Shown piece by piece: positions 1 through 31,700 of a DNA stretch of 64,000 nt. Position 1 is the first letter of the stretch. Every line of letters begins with the position of its first letter. This DNA comes from Candidatus Nitrososphaera gargensis Ga9.2. Lineage in GTDB: Archaea; Thermoproteota; Nitrososphaeria; Nitrososphaerales; Nitrososphaeraceae. The DNA is taken from NCBI RefSeq assembly GCF_000303155.1, contig NC_018719.1:2418001-2482000 (forward strand), in the 5' to 3' direction. Position numbers and translations under genes: made by a program. Below the pieces are notes generated by a model. That model was not told the DNA's origin. It worked only from the letters and a program-made list of their open reading frames with translations, and ran no database searches.

Positions 1-890
1 TGCGCCTTAAGCGTCATTTCCGGCTCGGCTGCAGTCCCGGTTTCGCCGGGCGGGATGAGCGGCACCTGCTTTGGCCTTTCCGGCACGACCAGCCCATAGC
101 TTGCGGTAACGTTCGAGTCCGCCGGCACTAGCCGCGGCCTATTCTTGCTTCCGTCCTCCCACTGCATGAACACGATGTCATTCTTCTTTGAGTTGCCACA
201 GTCGTTACAGTCTGCAGGGTAGACGAAATAGAGCTTGTCTTCAAGCCCGCTTACCGTAAAGCCCCGCTCGTCCGCATAGCCTGTCTTTATGATGTTGCCG
301 TTGATGTCATAGACTGCCGTGAACATGCCGACTCCGTCGTCAGTGAACTTTTCGCTCCAGCCTTCAGACTGGATCCTCTTTGCGCGGATCGTTATGCTGT
401 GGCTCTTGTCCGCCGGCTTGGTGGCACTGTCATCATCATTTTCAAGCTCGATGTGGTGGTTGATAGTGGTGCGGTAATTCTCCAAGTTTATCGTGACTGG
501 CTGGTAGATTATTGTATTGTTGCGGTAGACCGGCTTGTTTATCACTACAGTATTGTTTGCAATAACGGTGCCGGTGTTGTTATTCTGCTGTTGTTGTTGT
601 GGCTGCTGGCCGCTGGCATTTTCAGCTATGGTAGTAGTGCTGCTGTCGCTGTCCGATTCGTTCCGTCTGTCTATGGTAGTCAAGACTGGCTCGGGGCCGG
701 CATCCTCCTGCTGCCTTGGCATGGCAGAATATGCCGCAAATCCTCCTATGGCTGCGACGACCACAATAATTACCGCGACGGCAGCTCCTTTTTTCCTGCT
801 CACCGCAAACCAGACGCCGGCTCGATATTTACGAGATATCGAGTTCCAATAAAGAAAATATGTCTTTGCTCTAGAAGAAATTTCTCGCAT
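1..890 (-). CDS. Membrane-anchored extracytoplasmic protein (C-terminus beyond window)
   Basis: The reverse frame stays open from ATG at 890 to the window edge, so the C-terminus is missing. The product has a short basic N-terminus (MREISSRAKTYFLYWN), one transmembrane segment at about residues 35-52 (AAVAVIIVVVAAIGGFAAY), a polar linker rich in Ser, Thr, Gln and Asn with a Gln run, then a globular part with a C-N-D-C pair. This is the plan of a membrane-tethered outward-facing domain. A GTG at 803 is an alternative start but would put the membrane segment at the extreme N-terminus. I do not recognise the family. Confidence 0.7.
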   Translation of the reverse strand, partial: MREISSRAKTYFLYWNSISRKYRAGVWFAVSRKKGAAVAVIIVVVAAIGGFAAYSAMPRQQEDAGPEPVLTTIDRRNESDSDSSTTTIAENASGQQPQQQQQNNNTGTVIANNTVVINKPVYRNNTIIYQPVTINLENYRTTINHHIELENDDDSATKPADKSHSITIRAKRIQSEGWSEKFTDDGVGMFTAVYDINGNIIKTGYADERGFTVSGLEDKLYFVYPADCNDCGNSKKNDIVFMQWEDGSKNRPRLVPADSNVTASYGLVVPERPKQVPLIPPGETGTAAEPEMTLKA

Positions 891-24089: not shown

Positions 24090-24827
24090 GTGAAGTTCGC
24101 CGACTGGTTCCCGTATTACCAAGGAATCCGCGCAGAATTTGGATACAGCACCGAAAAAGATCAGGAGGCTGCAAGAATCCTATCAGAGATGATAAAGAGC
24201 AAGGCGCTTGACCCAAAGGTGCTACAGAAAAAGATCAAGGGCAAGAACATCATTGTGGTAGGGGCCGGCCCAAGCCTAGAGGATGAAAAAACGCTAAAGT
24301 TTATCAAGAAGAATAAGAAGTCTGTGAAGATAGCTGCTGACGGCGCTGTGCAGTTTTTGATTGAAAACAAGATAAAGCCAGACATTGTTGTCACCGACCT
24401 TGACGGCGACGCAGCATCTTTGCAAAAGGCAGAAAAGGGCGGCGCAATTATGGTGGTGCACGCCCACGGCGATAACACGGCCATGCTCAAAAAGCTAGTT
24501 CCGAAATTCAAAAAGCTAGTCGGGTCCACGCAGGTTATGCCAGTTGAAAACGTCTATAATTTTGGCGGCTTTACCGATGGCGACAGAGGTGTGTTTCTGG
24601 CAGAGGAGTTTGGCGCCAAGAAAATAGTCCTTGTAGGAATGGACTTTGGAGAGAGCATCGGCAAGTATTCAAAGAAAAAGGGCAAGGACGCCGAGCTTAA
24701 GAAGCAAAAGATGGAGGCTGGCAAACGCCTGCTTGAGATGCTTGCCAAGCAATCCCGCTCCGAGCTAGCAGATATATCCAAAAAGCCCATCAGAGGATTT
24801 GCACCGCTTGCAGCCAACAAGGCATGA
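24090..24827 (+). CDS. mptE: 6-hydroxymethyl-7,8-dihydropterin pyrophosphokinase, archaeal MptE type
   Basis: This DUF115-family enzyme makes the pterin diphosphate used by dihydropteroate synthase. Signature blocks are NIIVVGAGPSLEDE, VKIAADGAVQFLIENKIKPD, IVVTDLDGD, VVHAHGDN and LVGMDFGESIGKYS. GTG 24090 (MKFADWFPYYQ) is the start. The next pathway enzyme homologue is at 2851-3690. The stop overlaps the ATG of the small membrane protein downstream (ATGA). Confidence 0.9.
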   Translation: MKFADWFPYYQGIRAEFGYSTEKDQEAARILSEMIKSKALDPKVLQKKIKGKNIIVVGAGPSLEDEKTLKFIKKNKKSVKIAADGAVQFLIENKIKPDIVVTDLDGDAASLQKAEKGGAIMVVHAHGDNTAMLKKLVPKFKKLVGSTQVMPVENVYNFGGFTDGDRGVFLAEEFGAKKIVLVGMDFGESIGKYSKKKGKDAELKKQKMEAGKRLLEMLAKQSRSELADISKKPIRGFAPLAANKA

Positions 24828-24985
24828 ATCCTAGGCGCAGGAGGCAGGCCAAGGGCATCGCGGGCATGGGTCTTGCCGTGCTAGGTGGCGTGGCATGGTT
24901 CTTTCAGCTATACATTCCGGCAGCCATTGCGTGGGGCGGCGCTGTAGTCATATTGATGAGCCTGAATCGGCGAAGGCGTCGCTGA
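24824..24985 (+). CDS. Small membrane protein coupled to mptE
   Basis: ATG 24824 overlaps the mptE stop by four bases. The 53-residue product has a basic N-terminus (MNPRRRRQAKG), two hydrophobic stretches forming a hairpin or one long span (AGMGLAVLGGVAWFF, AIAWGGAVVILMS) and a run of Arg at the end. Function unknown. Confidence 0.6.
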   Translation: MNPRRRRQAKGIAGMGLAVLGGVAWFFQLYIPAAIAWGGAVVILMSLNRRRRR

Positions 24986-25115
24986 CAGTATCCCGGGAGT
25001 AAAAGTTTGATGTGCAGACAACAACAGTACTTTTCTTTCTTTGTCAAGTTGCCAGCGATTGTCCAGTGATTAGGGCTTGCATCTCCACCTCAGGATGCTT
25101 CTTAATCAAGATAAA

Positions 25116-25128
25116 AACTCTTTAAAAT
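25116..25128 (+). promoter_or_regulatory. Promoter element AACTCTTTAAAAT (RNA copy A)
   Basis: First of a set of near-identical TATA-containing elements. TTTAAAA begins at 25121, and the predicted RNA 5' hairpin starts at 25150-25151, 29 nt downstream. Confidence 0.6.
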
Positions 25129-25149
25129 AATGGCTTTCAAAATAGCGAT

Positions 25150-25260
25150 GCAGCCAACCGCCATCATGGCTGTGAACGTAGCCGAAGAAATCATACACAC
25201 ACGTCGCCAAGCCCGAAAGCTGCTGTTGCGAATAATGCCACCAGCAAGTAGGGCTTGCCT
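25150..25260 (+). ncRNA. Structured RNA candidate, copy A
   Basis: No reading frame. The 5' hairpin is CAGCCA (25151-25156) with TGGCTG (25167-25172). The 3' hairpin has outer stem CAAGCCC (25208-25214) with GGGCTTG (25251-25257), internal loop GAAA (25215-25218) opposite AAGTA (25246-25250), and inner stem GCTG (25219-25222) with CAGC (25242-25245). The GAAA/AAGTA pair looks like a loop-E (bulged-G) motif. The same architecture, with different but still pairing stems, recurs in copies C, D and E. Function unknown. Confidence 0.6.
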
Positions 25261-25302
25261 GTCATGATGCTGAAACTGAAACTGCCGATTAGGACCGATA
25301 AT

Positions 25303-25315
25303 AACTCTTTAAAAT
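25303..25315 (+). promoter_or_regulatory. Promoter element AACTCTTTAAAAT of the 25377 gene
   Basis: Same 13-mer as the RNA promoters. Transcription predicted near 25337 gives a leader of about 40 nt with an AGGAGG ribosome site at about 25362-25368, 8-9 nt before TTG 25377. Confidence 0.55.
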
Positions 25316-25376
25316 CCTGCAATTCAGATAAAACCTGTACATAATATCAAAGCGGTTAGAAAAGGAGGAAACAATA

Positions 25377-25589
25377 TTGGCCTGTAAGGGAATATGCGAG
25401 CAATTTCGTGCAACAAATTCGTCTGACAACCTTCACTACCTTTCAGGGCAAAAAAGGTGCCAACACTGCAGCCTCTTCATGTATGTAGAGGGAAACATGT
25501 GCCCATGCTGTCATCACAGGTTGAGGCTGTCTCCTAGACCATCAAAACACAAAAGGAGATTTCTAAATGAAAGGCAAGTTCGTCACTAG
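25377..25589 (+). CDS. Zinc-binding protein of the MACKGIC family
   Basis: The 70-residue product starts MACKGICEQFRAT and contains GQKRCQHCSLFM and CPCCHHRLR, then a basic tail. I recall this as a recurring thaumarchaeal small-protein family; its role is unknown. TTG 25377 is preferred because of the strong upstream AGGAGG. It shares its promoter type with the RNA candidates. It converges with the reverse RNA candidate at 25597. Confidence 0.65.
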   Translation: MACKGICEQFRATNSSDNLHYLSGQKRCQHCSLFMYVEGNMCPCCHHRLRLSPRPSKHKRRFLNERQVRH

Positions 25590-25596
25590 CTGCTGG

Positions 25597-25706
25597 ATAA
25601 AAAATGGCTCAGGATATCTTCTAGGTCCAGCTTACAGGTATTCTGCTGCCGACTTAAGCTGTTGTTGATGATGTCCCGACTGGTTTGTATGTGCTATCTT
25701 ACGGAA
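25597..25706 (-). ncRNA. Reverse-strand RNA candidate with shared promoter element
   Basis: The 13-mer AACTCTTTAAAAT occurs on the reverse strand at 25740-25728. From the predicted 5' end near 25706 there is no long frame, but there is a perfect 7-bp stem CAGCTTA (25661-25655) with TAAGCTG (25634-25628) on the reverse strand, and a T-run (CATTTTTTATCC) near 25600 that could end the transcript. It lacks the GAAA/AGTA loop of the main family. Confidence 0.35.
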
Positions 25707-25816
25707 GAAGACGAGACAGCGACCATTATTTTAAAGAGTTATTATAGACATCTTTTTGCCCCGGTTTTTATTTATTTATGAAAAGTGTTATTTGATTTGT
25801 GCCAATTACCTCTTTA

Positions 25817-27573: not shown

Positions 27574-28902
27574 CAGTACCTGGCAATTAGCCACCATCAA
27601 TTATAACTGACCTGCTGTTTTTGATCTGTACCGAGTACACCGCGCCGTATTTCTGCTCCAGTCCCAGCCGCAGAAAAAGCAGCATATGAAAGTACGTAAA
27701 TTCTGCATCGTATCTTCTCCCGTACCTTCCGCGCGTCGCCTTGCTGAGGTACTGCCACTTGATGTACACCCACTCATTCTGTATAACAAGCGATGCCAGA
27801 ACATAGAGGAAGCGCAGTGCTGGACTCCTGGATGACGTCCTGGCCCTGCTCTTTCCCATCGCCCTGTATGACGATTCTATGCCAAATCTCCTCCGGTACT
27901 CGTCAAACATCCGCCCTACCGGGATATTGACAAGGCCTGCGGCATAGTACATGTACTGGACGCCGCGTTTCTTCCTGTACCTTTTCTTCCGGTATTTGGC
28001 AACGGCATACAGCCTGAATGTGCATTTCTCGCCGGTGGCAGAATCTGTCATTTCGCAGTCCGGTACGACGAAACTATCCCTTCTTTTCCGGGTCAGTCTG
28101 GATAACGTGCCGCCTTTCCTGCCTCTTGGAAAAGCGGCTATGATGTACGGGATACGCATGGAATTGAGGTAGCTCATTACAGCTGCTGTAAAGAACCCCT
28201 TGTCAAGGAACAGGCATTTTATCACGATGCTCGCCTTCTGTACCTCTGCAAGCAGGTACCTGACTACTCCAACCAGTGCTTCCCCCTCCCGGATGTACCT
28301 GGTGGCCAAGGTGAACCTCCTTCCATGGAGCATCACGTAGGCGCTGGCGTACGTGAAAAAGTGGGTCGTGCCGCTCCTGGCCCTGCCGCGTCTGACATCC
28401 CCCTCATTCTCAGGCTCGCCGTGGTAGGGAACGTCTGTCATGTCGATGGCTATGTCGACAGCTCGATTGTGCAGGGTCTCCGCCACCCTTTTCTGCAGCA
28501 GCCTGTTGGCGGCCGACTGAATCCACGAAATGTCAATCTTGGACACGTGGTACTGGACATCCCTCCTGGACGGGGTGCTGGCCAGAGTACAGCAGGCTTG
28601 TGTTATGGATGTCCCACCGGTACAGGCATAGACCACAGAATTTGCTATATCGACTACTGAATACCGCCTTTTTCTGAAATCGGCTGGCCTGAAGACTGGC
28701 AGCAGTACGTTTACTGCATTACCAAGTACTCTCTCATGTGTCAAAAAATGTTTGTCGGTAGGTTCTTGGGTAAATGTACCGCACTGGATTGGCAGGGTTC
28801 TCACAAACCATGCGTCTCTGGTGGCAGCTTTAGCTGTTGCCAGGGACGCCCTTCAACAATCGACTAAAAAGCTGCTCACAAACTCGTTATTGCCAAGTAC
28901 TG
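27574..28902 (-). mobile_element. ISH3-type insertion sequence
   Basis: The 1329-bp element is bounded by imperfect inverted ends CAGTACCTGGCAAT (27574-27587) and, on the other strand, CAGTACTTGGCAAT (28902-28889), one mismatch in 14. It is flanked by a 5-bp duplication ATATT and carries one transposase gene. It sits inside a surface-protein gene, which becomes readable when the element is removed. The clean duplication and near-identical ends suggest fairly recent insertion. Confidence 0.85.
27587..28804 (-). CDS. ISH3-family transposase
   Basis: A 405-residue DDE transposase. The catalytic residues are likely in IDMTDVPYHG (Asp), LFLDKGFFTAAVM (Asp) and FGIESSYRAMGKSRARTSSR (Glu), the layout of ISH3 and related archaeal IS4-like enzymes. 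The frame is intact, so the element may still be active. It fills almost the whole element. Confidence 0.88.
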   Translation of the reverse strand: MRTLPIQCGTFTQEPTDKHFLTHERVLGNAVNVLLPVFRPADFRKRRYSVVDIANSVVYACTGGTSITQACCTLASTPSRRDVQYHVSKIDISWIQSAANRLLQKRVAETLHNRAVDIAIDMTDVPYHGEPENEGDVRRGRARSGTTHFFTYASAYVMLHGRRFTLATRYIREGEALVGVVRYLLAEVQKASIVIKCLFLDKGFFTAAVMSYLNSMRIPYIIAAFPRGRKGGTLSRLTRKRRDSFVVPDCEMTDSATGEKCTFRLYAVAKYRKKRYRKKRGVQYMYYAAGLVNIPVGRMFDEYRRRFGIESSYRAMGKSRARTSSRSPALRFLYVLASLVIQNEWVYIKWQYLSKATRGRYGRRYDAEFTYFHMLLFLRLGLEQKYGAVYSVQIKNSRSVIIDGG

Positions 28903-29637: not shown

Positions 29638-29880
29638 TCTAGTTTACTTCCTCTGAAGCTCCAATCAACGATCCATACTTGCCAAAAAGAGGGACACCAA
29701 ATCTACCAACAGAGCTATCTCTGACCTTTTGTATATACCACTGATGATCACCTCCTCTTCCCCTATTTTCACACAATCAAGCTCTGCGAATAGCGCAGCC
29801 AAGCATCTCTCTCTATAGGGTCAGGTACTCCTACGACAAAAATGCAGACATCGCTTTGAGGGGTTTGTGCTTGATAACTG
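29638..29880 (-). pseudogene. Coding remnant of unknown family
   Basis: Reverse-strand segments in different frames read like protein: SDVCIFVVGVPDPIERDAWL then a shift to WYIQKVRDSSVGRFGVPLFG and KYGSLIGASEEVN ending in TAG at 29638-29640. No start and no continuous frame. The family was not recognised. Confidence 0.35.
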
Positions 29881-30017
29881 CTACCACAACTATCAGATTA
29901 CGCTTGCATTTGATTTGATTTTTTTTATCTATCTTCGTCGTGTAAATACATGATGAGCTACATCTTCTTCATAATCGTCAGGTGGTTGTGCACCAGTTCA
30001 GACCATATGTATACATA

Positions 30018-30076
30018 CAGTCGGCCCAAAAGCTGCTGCCGCGAATGATGTGCCGCCAGCAAGCAGGTAAGGACTG
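30018..30076 (+). ncRNA. Degenerate copy (B) of the structured RNA hairpin
   Basis: The stretch AAGCTGCTGCCGCGAATGAT...GCCAGCAAG closely matches copy A (AAGCTGCTGTTGCGAATAAT...ACCAGCAAG). The outer helix is replaced by CAGTC (30018-30022) with GACTG (30072-30076), and the internal loop reads AAAA / AAGCA, so the invariant loop is lost. No AACTCTTTAAAAT element lies about 120 bp upstream. It is probably a decayed duplicate. Confidence 0.4.
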
Positions 30077-30096
30077 TTTCTTTATAATATAATATA

Positions 30097-30109
30097 AATT
30101 CTTTAAAAT
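30097..30109 (+). promoter_or_regulatory. Promoter element AATTCTTTAAAAT of the winged-helix gene
   Basis: One base different from the RNA promoter 13-mer. The predicted transcription start near 30131 precedes the winged-helix coding sequence by only a few bases. Confidence 0.5.
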
Positions 30110-30135
30110 TCCAACATCGACAAGAGGATCTACTA

Positions 30136-30383
30136 TTGCTAGAACCAAAATTCGGCTCAAAGTAGTAGCAGTATTGCGAGCTGTGGCAAGCCCAATTACA
30201 ATGCTGCAAATCATGCATAAGGCCTTTACCACGGCTGATGTCGCAAAGGCAGTAATTCAAGAGCTTATCAACGAAGAATTGCTGGCAAGAGAGCCCGGCA
30301 CAAAGCTTTACCGTATTACACAAAAGGGTCGAAAATGGCTTGATACGATGCAAAATAGTTTAAGCACACAGCTACAAATATAG
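30136..30383 (+). CDS. Small winged-helix DNA-binding protein
   Basis: The domain reads VVAVLRAVASPITMLQIMHK, ADVAKAVIQELINEELLARE, LYRITQKGRKWLDTMQ: helix-turn-helix followed by the wing, as in archaeal PadR-like or Sso10a-like regulators. TTG 30174 is the only standard start, but coding character begins earlier (ARTKIRLKVV). An ATT at 30136, about 5 nt from the predicted 5' end, would give a complete leaderless protein. That start is inference. It lies between the degenerate and intact RNA copies and shares their promoter type, so it is a candidate regulator of the locus. Confidence 0.5.
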
Positions 30384-30406
30384 CATGTGTGTGTCTTGGT
30401 TAACAA

Positions 30407-30419
30407 AACTCTTTAAAAT
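30407..30419 (+). promoter_or_regulatory. Promoter element AACTCTTTAAAAT (RNA copy C)
   Basis: TTTAAAA begins at 30412; the 5' hairpin of copy C begins at 30441, 29 nt downstream, the same spacing as in copies A, D and E. Confidence 0.6.
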
Positions 30420-30440
30420 TTTGCTTTTGAAGCCAAACAA

Positions 30441-30545
30441 GCAACCATACATCCACACCATGTGTGTGGTTGCTGGGTAATGCGTCACCAAACCAAGCCT
30501 GAAAGCCAGAGGTGCATTTATGGCAAGTAGGGCTTGGTTTATTAT
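30441..30545 (+). ncRNA. Structured RNA candidate, copy C
   Basis: 5' hairp: GCAACC (30441-30446) pairs with GGTTGC (30468-30473). 3' hairpin: outer stem AACCAAGCCT (30491-30500) with GGGCTTGGTT (30530-30539), ten pairs; internal loop GAAA (30501-30504) opposite AAGTA (30525-30529); inner stem GCCA (30505-30508) with TGGC (30521-30524). Compared with copy A the inner stem has changed both strands and the outer stem is extended by pairing bases. A T-rich stretch follows. No convincing reading frame. Confidence 0.62.
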
Positions 30546-30583
30546 TACTACACAAATTGCTTCTCTTGATAAAAAGGAAAATA

Positions 30584-30596
30584 AACTCTTTAAAAT
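30584..30596 (+). promoter_or_regulatory. Promoter element AACTCTTTAAAAT (RNA copy D)
   Basis: TTTAAAA begins at 30589, 29 nt before the predicted RNA 5' end at 30618. The flanking ATAA...AATGG also matches copy A. Confidence 0.6.
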
Positions 30597-30617
30597 AATG
30601 GTGTTGAAGAATGATAT

Positions 30618-30735
30618 GCAACCACGCAGGGCGAGCGTAGTTGTACCTGCAAGGCCGTAAATACCAATCAAGCCCGAAAGCCGTCAGTTCTAGTGCTTAA
30701 CAGACATTGTTTGACGGCAAGTAGGGCTTGCTTGC
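30618..30735 (+). ncRNA. Structured RNA candidate, copy D
   Basis: Best-formed member. The 5' hairpin pairs GCAAC-ACGC (30618-30627, one mismatch) with GCGT-GTTGT (30635-30644). The 3' hairpin has outer stem CAAGCCC (30669-30675) with GGGCTTG (30724-30730), internal loop GAAA (30676-30679) opposite AAGTA (30719-30723), and a seven-pair inner stem GCCGTCA (30680-30686) with TGACGGC (30712-30718), closing a 25-nt loop. The 5' end GCAACCA matches copy C. Tandem spacing between promoters C, D and E is 177 and 168 bp. Confidence 0.65.
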
Positions 30736-30751
30736 ATTTTGGTCAAAAATA

Positions 30752-30764
30752 AACTCTTTAAAAT
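30752..30764 (+). promoter_or_regulatory. Promoter element AACTCTTTAAAAT (RNA copy E)
   Basis: TTTAAAA begins at 30757, and the predicted RNA 5' end is 30786, again 29 nt. Confidence 0.58.
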
Positions 30765-30785
30765 CATCATACCGATAGTAGACAA

Positions 30786-30930
30786 GGTGGCTGCTAATGC
30801 AGTCGCTTAGGGTTTAGCCAATCTAAGCCCAAGAAAGACCAGCAACCGCGTGTCACAAGAGGCCTGAAAGCTGCTTCAAATTAAAAAGAAGAAGAAGGTC
30901 TTCACTGGTAGTGAGTAGGGCCTTTTGCTC
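30786..30930 (+). ncRNA. Structured RNA candidate, copy E
   Basis: The 5' hairpin is CTGC (30791-30794) with GCAG (30799-30802) plus flanking G-U/G-C pairs, and a second small stem CTTAG (30806-30810) with CTAAG (30823-30827). The 3' hairpin has outer stem AAGAGGCCT (30857-30865) with GGGCCTTTT (30918-30926), internal loop GAAA (30866-30869) opposite GAGTA (30913-30917), and a weaker inner stem. The outer stem differs from the other copies on both strands while keeping pairing. An alternative fold uses GCCC (30827-30830) with GGGC (30918-30921). Confidence 0.5.
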
Positions 30931-31172
30931 TTACTCTATATGAATTTCGCCGATAGCGAGCTGAGAGGTAGATAATAATGTGGTCGTCGCAGGGTTGCAT
31001 TGCCCGCCCTTGGTGTTAATGACTAGCTTTTGCGGTTTGTCGTCTATGTGCTTCTAAAGATAGTGTGTGTATGTGTAGCCTAGGTTAAAGAGATGGATAA
31101 AAGATGATGACGGCGGCTCCCTCTGGATAAAAGGAATTTGCACAAAGATCGCCTGCTTGCATAACCATAATA

Positions 31173-31307
31173 ATGAACAGCGCCACAACAGGTAGGCAAA
31201 AAATACCACCACTATTACTAGAACCAGAGTTCAAGGGTTCATCTCCGAAACGGCAGCTGAACAGCTGCTACTACCCTTTTTTCCTTCTTCTCCTGGAATG
31301 GAAATAA
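31173..31307 (+). CDS. Doubtful 44-residue ORF
   Basis: ATG 31173 opens 44 codons (MNSATTGRQKIPPLLLEPEF...) with no motif. It is the only start-to-stop frame of note on the forward strand of an otherwise empty stretch between the RNA copies and the kinase. Probably not a gene. Confidence 0.2.
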   Translation: MNSATTGRQKIPPLLLEPEFKGSSPKRQLNSCYYPFFLLLLEWK

Positions 31308-31468
31308 TAATCCATCGCTAGCGGTGACCATTTTTATCAGCTGATCTCTGTTGCATGGTTTATACACAGGTGTGCCACACACCTAGTTTCGTCATTATTT
31401 CCGAGGAAAACGGGCATTACGCTGTGCCTGACACCCCACAGTATTTTTGCAGCCAAAAAACACGGGCT

Positions 31469-31700
31469 TCATGCTTTGTACTTCCTCCAGAGTTCCTCTC
31501 TTTTTTCCCTGCGGACCAGCTCTGCAATGTTTTGTTATTGTTGGCCGATGATCTTCAGGTTTCTTGTTTCCCGACTTTCAGGCACAGGCATTTGTTTGCA
31601 TATTATCATCATCATAATCAGCATTTAGCAGAGCTCTGAATAGAGACCCCCTGTAGGAAGCTTTCTTCGCAAGAAGGTAATGACTGAAAAAGGTGGCAAG
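31469..31700 (-). pseudogene. Coding remnant of unknown family
   Basis: On the reverse strand LATFFSHYLLAKKASYRGSL and FRALLNADYDDDNMQTNACA end at a TGA; in another frame the sequence continues ESRETRNLKIIGQQ, TAA, QNIAELVRREKREELWRKYK and a final TGA at 31469. The helical, basic C-terminus looks real, but start and continuity are lost. Confidence 0.35.

Follow-up and report, generated by a model that had tools for sequence, protein, structure and literature searches.

The window analysed here is a 64,000-nucleotide stretch of the Candidatus Nitrososphaera gargensis Ga9.2 genome (NC_018719.1, positions 2,418,001 to 2,482,000). It contains four units, all on the plus strand, that are members of one structured RNA family: three stand in tandem and a fourth lies some 5 kb upstream. 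When the sequences of 24800-25600 and 29800-31600 were re-examined, all four were found where the original prediction had placed them.

Each unit comprises a promoter box, a 5' hairpin and a 3' hairpin. In unit 1, the box (30406-30419, assigned by box match and spacing) is followed by a 5' hairpin that folds as GCAACCA...TGGTTGC (30441-30473) and by the 3' hairpin AACCAAGCCT-GAAA-GCC..GGC-AAGTA-GGGCTTGGTT (30491-30540), which scores 46.9 bits (E 2.4e-8) with our final covariance model, R3. Unit 2 has its box, identified in the same way, at 30583-30596, a 5' hairpin (CAACcACG/CGTaGTTG) at 30618-30650, where the pairing comes from direct reading and the computed fold differs, and a 3' hairpin with a GAAA/AAGTA loop at 30669-30732 (65.5 bits with covariance model R1; z -5.03). 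Unit 3 consists of a box at 30751-30764, again found by match and spacing, a folded 5' hairpin at 30786-30807 and a 3' hairpin with a GAAA/GAGTA loop at 30859-30926 (R3 36.3 bits; whole-unit z -3.66). Unit 4 shows an exact match to the promoter box AAACTCTTTAAAAT at 25115-25128, with 29 nt from TTTAAAA to the hairpin; its 5' hairpin (CAGCCA/TGGCTG, 25150-25180) folds, and compared with the stem of unit 1 (CAACCA/TGGTTG) letters have changed while pairing is kept. Its 3' hairpin, with a GAAA/AAGTA loop, occupies 25208-25259 (R1 51.8 bits; R3 42.6 bits). Throughout the array (30406-30930), the promoter of the next unit comes directly after each unit, and on the array strand the first downstream long ORF lies at 31355 or 31869. 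The tandem array and the unit at 25150 are separated by, among other sequence, a 405-aa transposase-like ORF (27587-28804, minus strand).

Counted from the first T of TTTAAAA, the 5' hairpin starts after exactly 29 nt, a distance predicted to be constant, in each of the four window units and again in a fifth type A copy, which lies outside the window at genome position 594 kb. All five promoter-type copies carry the AAACTCTTTAAAAT box with the hairpin start fixed at this distance. The promoter core CTCTTTAAAAT, an 11-mer, has nine matches in the genome versus one for the reversed control, and five of the nine are upstream of RNA units. Promoter-box match and spacing thus support putative TATA-type promoters for these units, as had been suggested, and several copies seem to be switched on by a promoter of their own. 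The RNA-type promoter, with a single mismatch, was also seen elsewhere in the window. At 25302 it heads a segment (25302-25589, plus strand) with a 70-aa CxxC/zinc-ribbon-like ORF that has a TTG start at 25377 and AGGAGG upstream; at 30096 it heads another (30096-30383, plus strand) with a small winged-helix-like ORF, immediately 5' of the array. A further copy is found at 25728 on the minus strand. The RNAs and the two small promoter-sharing ORFs may form a small shared regulon.

The hairpins fold as originally drawn. Three of the four units are more stable than their shuffles, with z values of -2.6 to -3.7 for the whole unit and -2.3 to -5.0 for the 3' hairpin; by folding energy alone, the unit at 25150 cannot be told from its shuffles (z 0.12 overall and -1.27 for its 3' hairpin).

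Covariation and the internal loop

Selection on RNA structure had been proposed from compensating stem changes among the window units, and a covariation test upholds it well beyond chance. In an alignment of 46 distinct hairpins, which was fitted to the covariance model and leans towards the structure, 94.9% of cells pair versus 83.6% in shuffles, double changes occur in 10 of 11 stem pairs versus 5.5, double-change cells number 68 versus 16.7 and the covariation score is 0.427 versus 0.229; none of 500 shuffles matched the pairing, double-change or covariation values. Sliding the partner columns by one to three positions lowers the covariation score to 0.18 or less. Unfitted MAFFT alignments gave five double-change cells versus 2.0 with nine sequences (reached by 4 of 500 shuffles) and 12 versus 5.0 with 12 sequences (0 of 500). 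The paired cells also include 50 G.U pairs against eight A.C cells, which are G.T on the other strand, and this excess indicates that the sense strand is the folding strand.

The internal loop, which the original prediction called invariant, is better described as nearly fixed: its 5' strand is GAAA in 38 of the 46 hairpins and its 3' strand is AAGUA or GAGUA in 41, with a few exceptions such as GAAC/GAAUA in the 594 kb copy. GAA faces AGUA between two helices, both of which covary. The proposed bulged-G (loop-E/sarcin-ricin type) internal loop is therefore supported, and at the level of sequence the family loop is a bulged-G module. It shares with the sarcin-ricin/loop-E motif the GAA opposite AGUA consensus and an extra A.R pair; this motif is a building block of many RNAs and not itself an RNA family. 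In the 23S sarcin-ricin loop, the order of the strands relative to the apical loop is the opposite of that in the present hairpins.

A dispersed family with several leaders

The source genome is a single contig of 2,833,868 bases. A search with the core pattern produced eight matches versus none in the reversed control, and revealed four additional hairpins with no type A promoter. Model R1, built from nine hairpins, retrieved 15 strong copies in this genome under stricter criteria; R3, with 48 rows and copies accepted at E<=0.02, retrieved 18 in the 2.83 Mb. The multi-copy family foreseen from four units is thus about four times larger than it first appeared. The covariance-model search that had been recommended also found copies in congeners and in one sister genus: among 39 genomes searched with a sensitive setting, 10 of the 17 other genomes of the genus and one sister genus (G020) carry the family. 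Outside the genus and sister genus, there was no match at E<=0.003 among 300 genomes of the order, an absence that is not absolute given that the stricter filters of this search missed the true carriers G008 and G013. The 292 genomes with no match also provide an empirical control for false positives. A looser pattern applied to all genomes was too unspecific, returning at least 120 matches, mostly due to chance and with 0-3 outer pairs.

Three copies in the source genome are degenerate (1418139, 593446 and 1193858), which shows that copies are decaying; the one at 1193858, on the minus strand, amounts to a degenerate 19th copy that has the TATCAGCTCTAAAT loop in common. Two observations concern the genomes themselves. 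A type C unit with GGTTCATT (44 bits) was found at positions 500-538 (plus strand) of a contig of 5 kb that is assigned to a TM6 metagenome-assembled genome (SOIL31) and is probably a mis-binned Nitrososphaera contig. In the complete-looking 2.53-Mb genome G014, the archaeal LSU rRNA model had no match, and sequence missing from the searched data or a search artefact is likely here rather than biology.

The copies fall into subfamilies, each with its own common leader. In the source genome, type A comprises five copies with the CTCTTTAAAAT box and type B six copies with a ATTCATATTTTCAGTTTTTAACTTTC block; the likeness among type B copies is confined to the leader and the 3' hairpin, and the intervening DNA is unrelated. 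Type C, found across species and accounting for 16 of 48 copies, joins a 5' hairpin to the 3' hairpin through GUUCAUY. Since this linker occurs in just 16 of the 48, the 5' domain is heterogeneous. Types D and E are units of about 75 nt, in G013-G015 and in G014/G015 respectively. When the type D units of the three species are aligned, the TATA (GAAACTTTTTATA) is conserved and the spacer behind it has diverged in G013; some 43 bases, ACAGCC to GAAA, are then identical, the hairpin is nearly so, and beyond it similarity is lost. Because the G013 flanks are non-homologous, the RNA unit itself is what selection keeps; read from this alignment, type D conservation has the shape expected of an RNA transcribed on its own. 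A run of four U residues lies within 15 nt 3' of the hairpin in 19 of 48 copies, versus a background of 10% in random stretches. Five source-genome copies at different loci (L017, L020, L021, L030 and L034) have the apical loop TATCAGCTCTAAATCC or close variants, a repetition that may reflect an unexplained constraint or shared recent ancestry.

Wherever surroundings were examined in the source genome, copies are intergenic and lie between ordinary genes, and in other genomes the neighbouring genes have every orientation. Tandem units with putative promoters of their own and neighbours in all orientations fit stand-alone genes. The earlier placement of the family in a mobile or defence-like region found no support: copies are scattered in ordinary intergenic DNA, and IS200-type transposase is absent from RNA-carrying relatives. 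The Y1 transposase domain PF01797 is intact only in G020, is present as broken copies in the source genome and is absent from the RNA carriers G008 and G013-G015, which include complete genomes.

Comparison with known RNAs and phage hairpins

With Rfam 15 covariance models, no unit reaches the gathering cut-off of any family, in agreement with the first impression that no catalogued RNA matches. Matches in the searched loci were limited to tRNAs and a tmRNA located elsewhere than the units; relaxed thresholds added just two weak sub-threshold matches, both off the hairpin. Box C (RUGAUGA) and its combination with box D (CUGA) occur in 0 of 48 units, ANA within 4 nt 3' of the hairpin in eight and ACA in three, so ordinary guide RNAs are excluded. 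A role as rRNA guides was likewise rejected when the duplex energies of 15 segments with 16S/23S rRNA overlapped those of shuffled segments. Two antisense hypotheses were also discarded, based on near-complement searches that are blind to short seeds with G.U pairs: for the TATCAGCTCTAAATCC loop as antisense to a repeated target, near-complements in the source genome were RNA copies, the degenerate 1193858 and one chance-level site in a kinase gene, and those of the conserved type D region in three genomes were the RNA genes themselves only.

The family resembles Hfq-type and archaeal Lsm-bound sRNAs, such as those of Haloferax (PMC3432209), in its short intergenic genes, which have a putative promoter of their own, a conserved stretch at the 5' side, a 3' hairpin common to the set and a U tract. 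It differs in having many paralogues with one elaborate internal-loop hairpin and no apparent link to Hfq or Lsm. Like archaeal H/ACA and C/D guides, its members are dispersed, multi-copy small structured RNAs with a common motif that would dock a protein; however, C/D boxes, regular ACA and rRNA complementarity are missing. The terminal hairpins of REP/RAYT and IS200/IS605 elements are also dispersed and have conserved internal mismatches, whereas most carriers of the present family have no transposase and the copies show a promoter and RNA-type conservation.

Outside archaea, related Bacteroidota prophage and viral contigs, including one from Sphingobacterium alimentarium, contain the same hairpin with an outer stem of 5-6 pairs, whereas almost all chance pattern matches have 0-3. 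In these contigs (L273:2300-2376, minus strand; L261, L263, L257, L260, L275 and L245/L215), a GAAA/RAGTA hairpin stands in the gap that separates a structural-type gene from the following ORF, and the GGTTAGG of its apical loop is the complement of a CCTAACC that shortly precedes the next ATG. The phage hairpin has no Rfam match and is a probable pseudoknot switch. Another viral contig contains AGGGCCC-GAAA-GCCGGCCGGC-GAGTA-GGGCCC directly before an ssb-like ORF (L269:7986-8020, plus strand). The archaeal and phage hairpins may be related by common descent or may have converged on a good module.

Possible roles of the family

Computation establishes the family, its fold, covariation, promoter spacing, dispersal and the conservation of free-standing units. 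This is a real, previously unstudied RNA family of an ammonia-oxidising archaeon of soil or hot springs, uncatalogued where we searched. We give about an even chance to the hypothesis that its members are trans-acting small RNAs combining a common 3' protein-docking hairpin with a variable 5' domain. They would be independently transcribed non-coding RNAs of about 70-145 nt in Nitrososphaera and one sister genus, each with a 5' part that varies (a hairpin, or else a short unpaired stretch that is conserved) and a 3' hairpin, shared by all, that contains the putative bulged-G module and in many cases precedes a U tract. The 3' hairpin would shield the 3' end and dock one shared RNA-binding protein, and the variable 5' part, or in some copies the apical loop, would contact differing targets by pairing, probably mRNAs.

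The main rival, which we consider possible though unlikely, is that the hairpin itself titrates or scaffolds a single RNA-binding protein and pairs with no target, in the manner of CsrB or 6S. The bulged-G hairpin is indeed the sole part common to all copies, copy number is high and includes a tandem array of three, the variable parts differ freely and the near-complement and rRNA searches gave no target. However, the ~43 identical bases of type D and the GUUCAUY of 16 of 48 linkers point to sequence-specific selection outside the hairpin. An explanation in cis, where the hairpin would be a leader (riboswitch or attenuator) or a 3'-end/terminator hairpin of neighbouring mRNAs, draws on three loci (L055, L060, L064) lying ~75-160 nt up- or downstream of a same-strand gene, on the U4 run after 19 of 48 hairpins and on the phage version, which looks cis-regulatory. 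We judge it improbable: orientation and neighbours are inconsistent, neighbours are convergent at L053, L054 and L056, and the window array has no downstream same-strand long ORF before those at 31355 or 31869. A conserved cis leader or riboswitch was rejected on such inconsistent neighbours and on the lack of genes between the units of the array.

The non-syntenic scatter of copies and the degenerate ones at 1418139, 593446 and 1193858 could suggest instead a dispersed non-autonomous repeat (REP/MITE-like hairpin), DNA that a transposase moves and that serves no function in the cell. This scenario has, in our view, a slim chance, as the Y1 transposase is absent from complete RNA carriers such as G013-G015 and only broken in the source genome, copies are homologous only in the putative promoter/leader and in the hairpin, with unrelated DNA between, a TATA at fixed spacing and the type D profile are unexpected for a DNA hairpin, and the G.U cells (50 vs 8) favour one strand. 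REP/RAYT or IS200 mobilisation as a general cause was ruled out by the restriction of intact PF01797 to G020, and a TnpB-type omegaRNA or transposon end by the lack of an adjacent transposase at the copies whose neighbourhoods were examined. Finally, copy number, dispersal and variable segments recall archaeal guide RNA sets, but rRNA or tRNA modification guides with an unusual scaffold are very improbable considering the near absence of guide boxes (box C and C..D 0/48, ACA 3/48), rRNA complementarity no better than that of shuffles and the lack of an Rfam guide match at cut-off.

Returning to trans-acting small RNAs, a bolder version, which we hold as a doubtful conjecture, is that a dedicated protein reads the GAAA/AGUA hairpin on up to ~20 paralogous sRNAs per genome with differing targeting segments, a lineage-specific form of riboregulation, and that Bacteroidota phages use the same hairpin type as a translational pseudoknot switch. 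Small-RNA regulation in Thaumarchaeota is essentially undescribed. According to a 2012 review (PMC3432209), sRNAs had at that time been analysed in no organism of this phylum, and we found no later description of a thaumarchaeal sRNA family in full-text, open-licence papers. A covariance-modelled family in a cultivated species would provide several handles on this regulation: 5' ends that are already predicted, a single bait hairpin with which to seek the protein partner, and orthologous members that help in locating targets.
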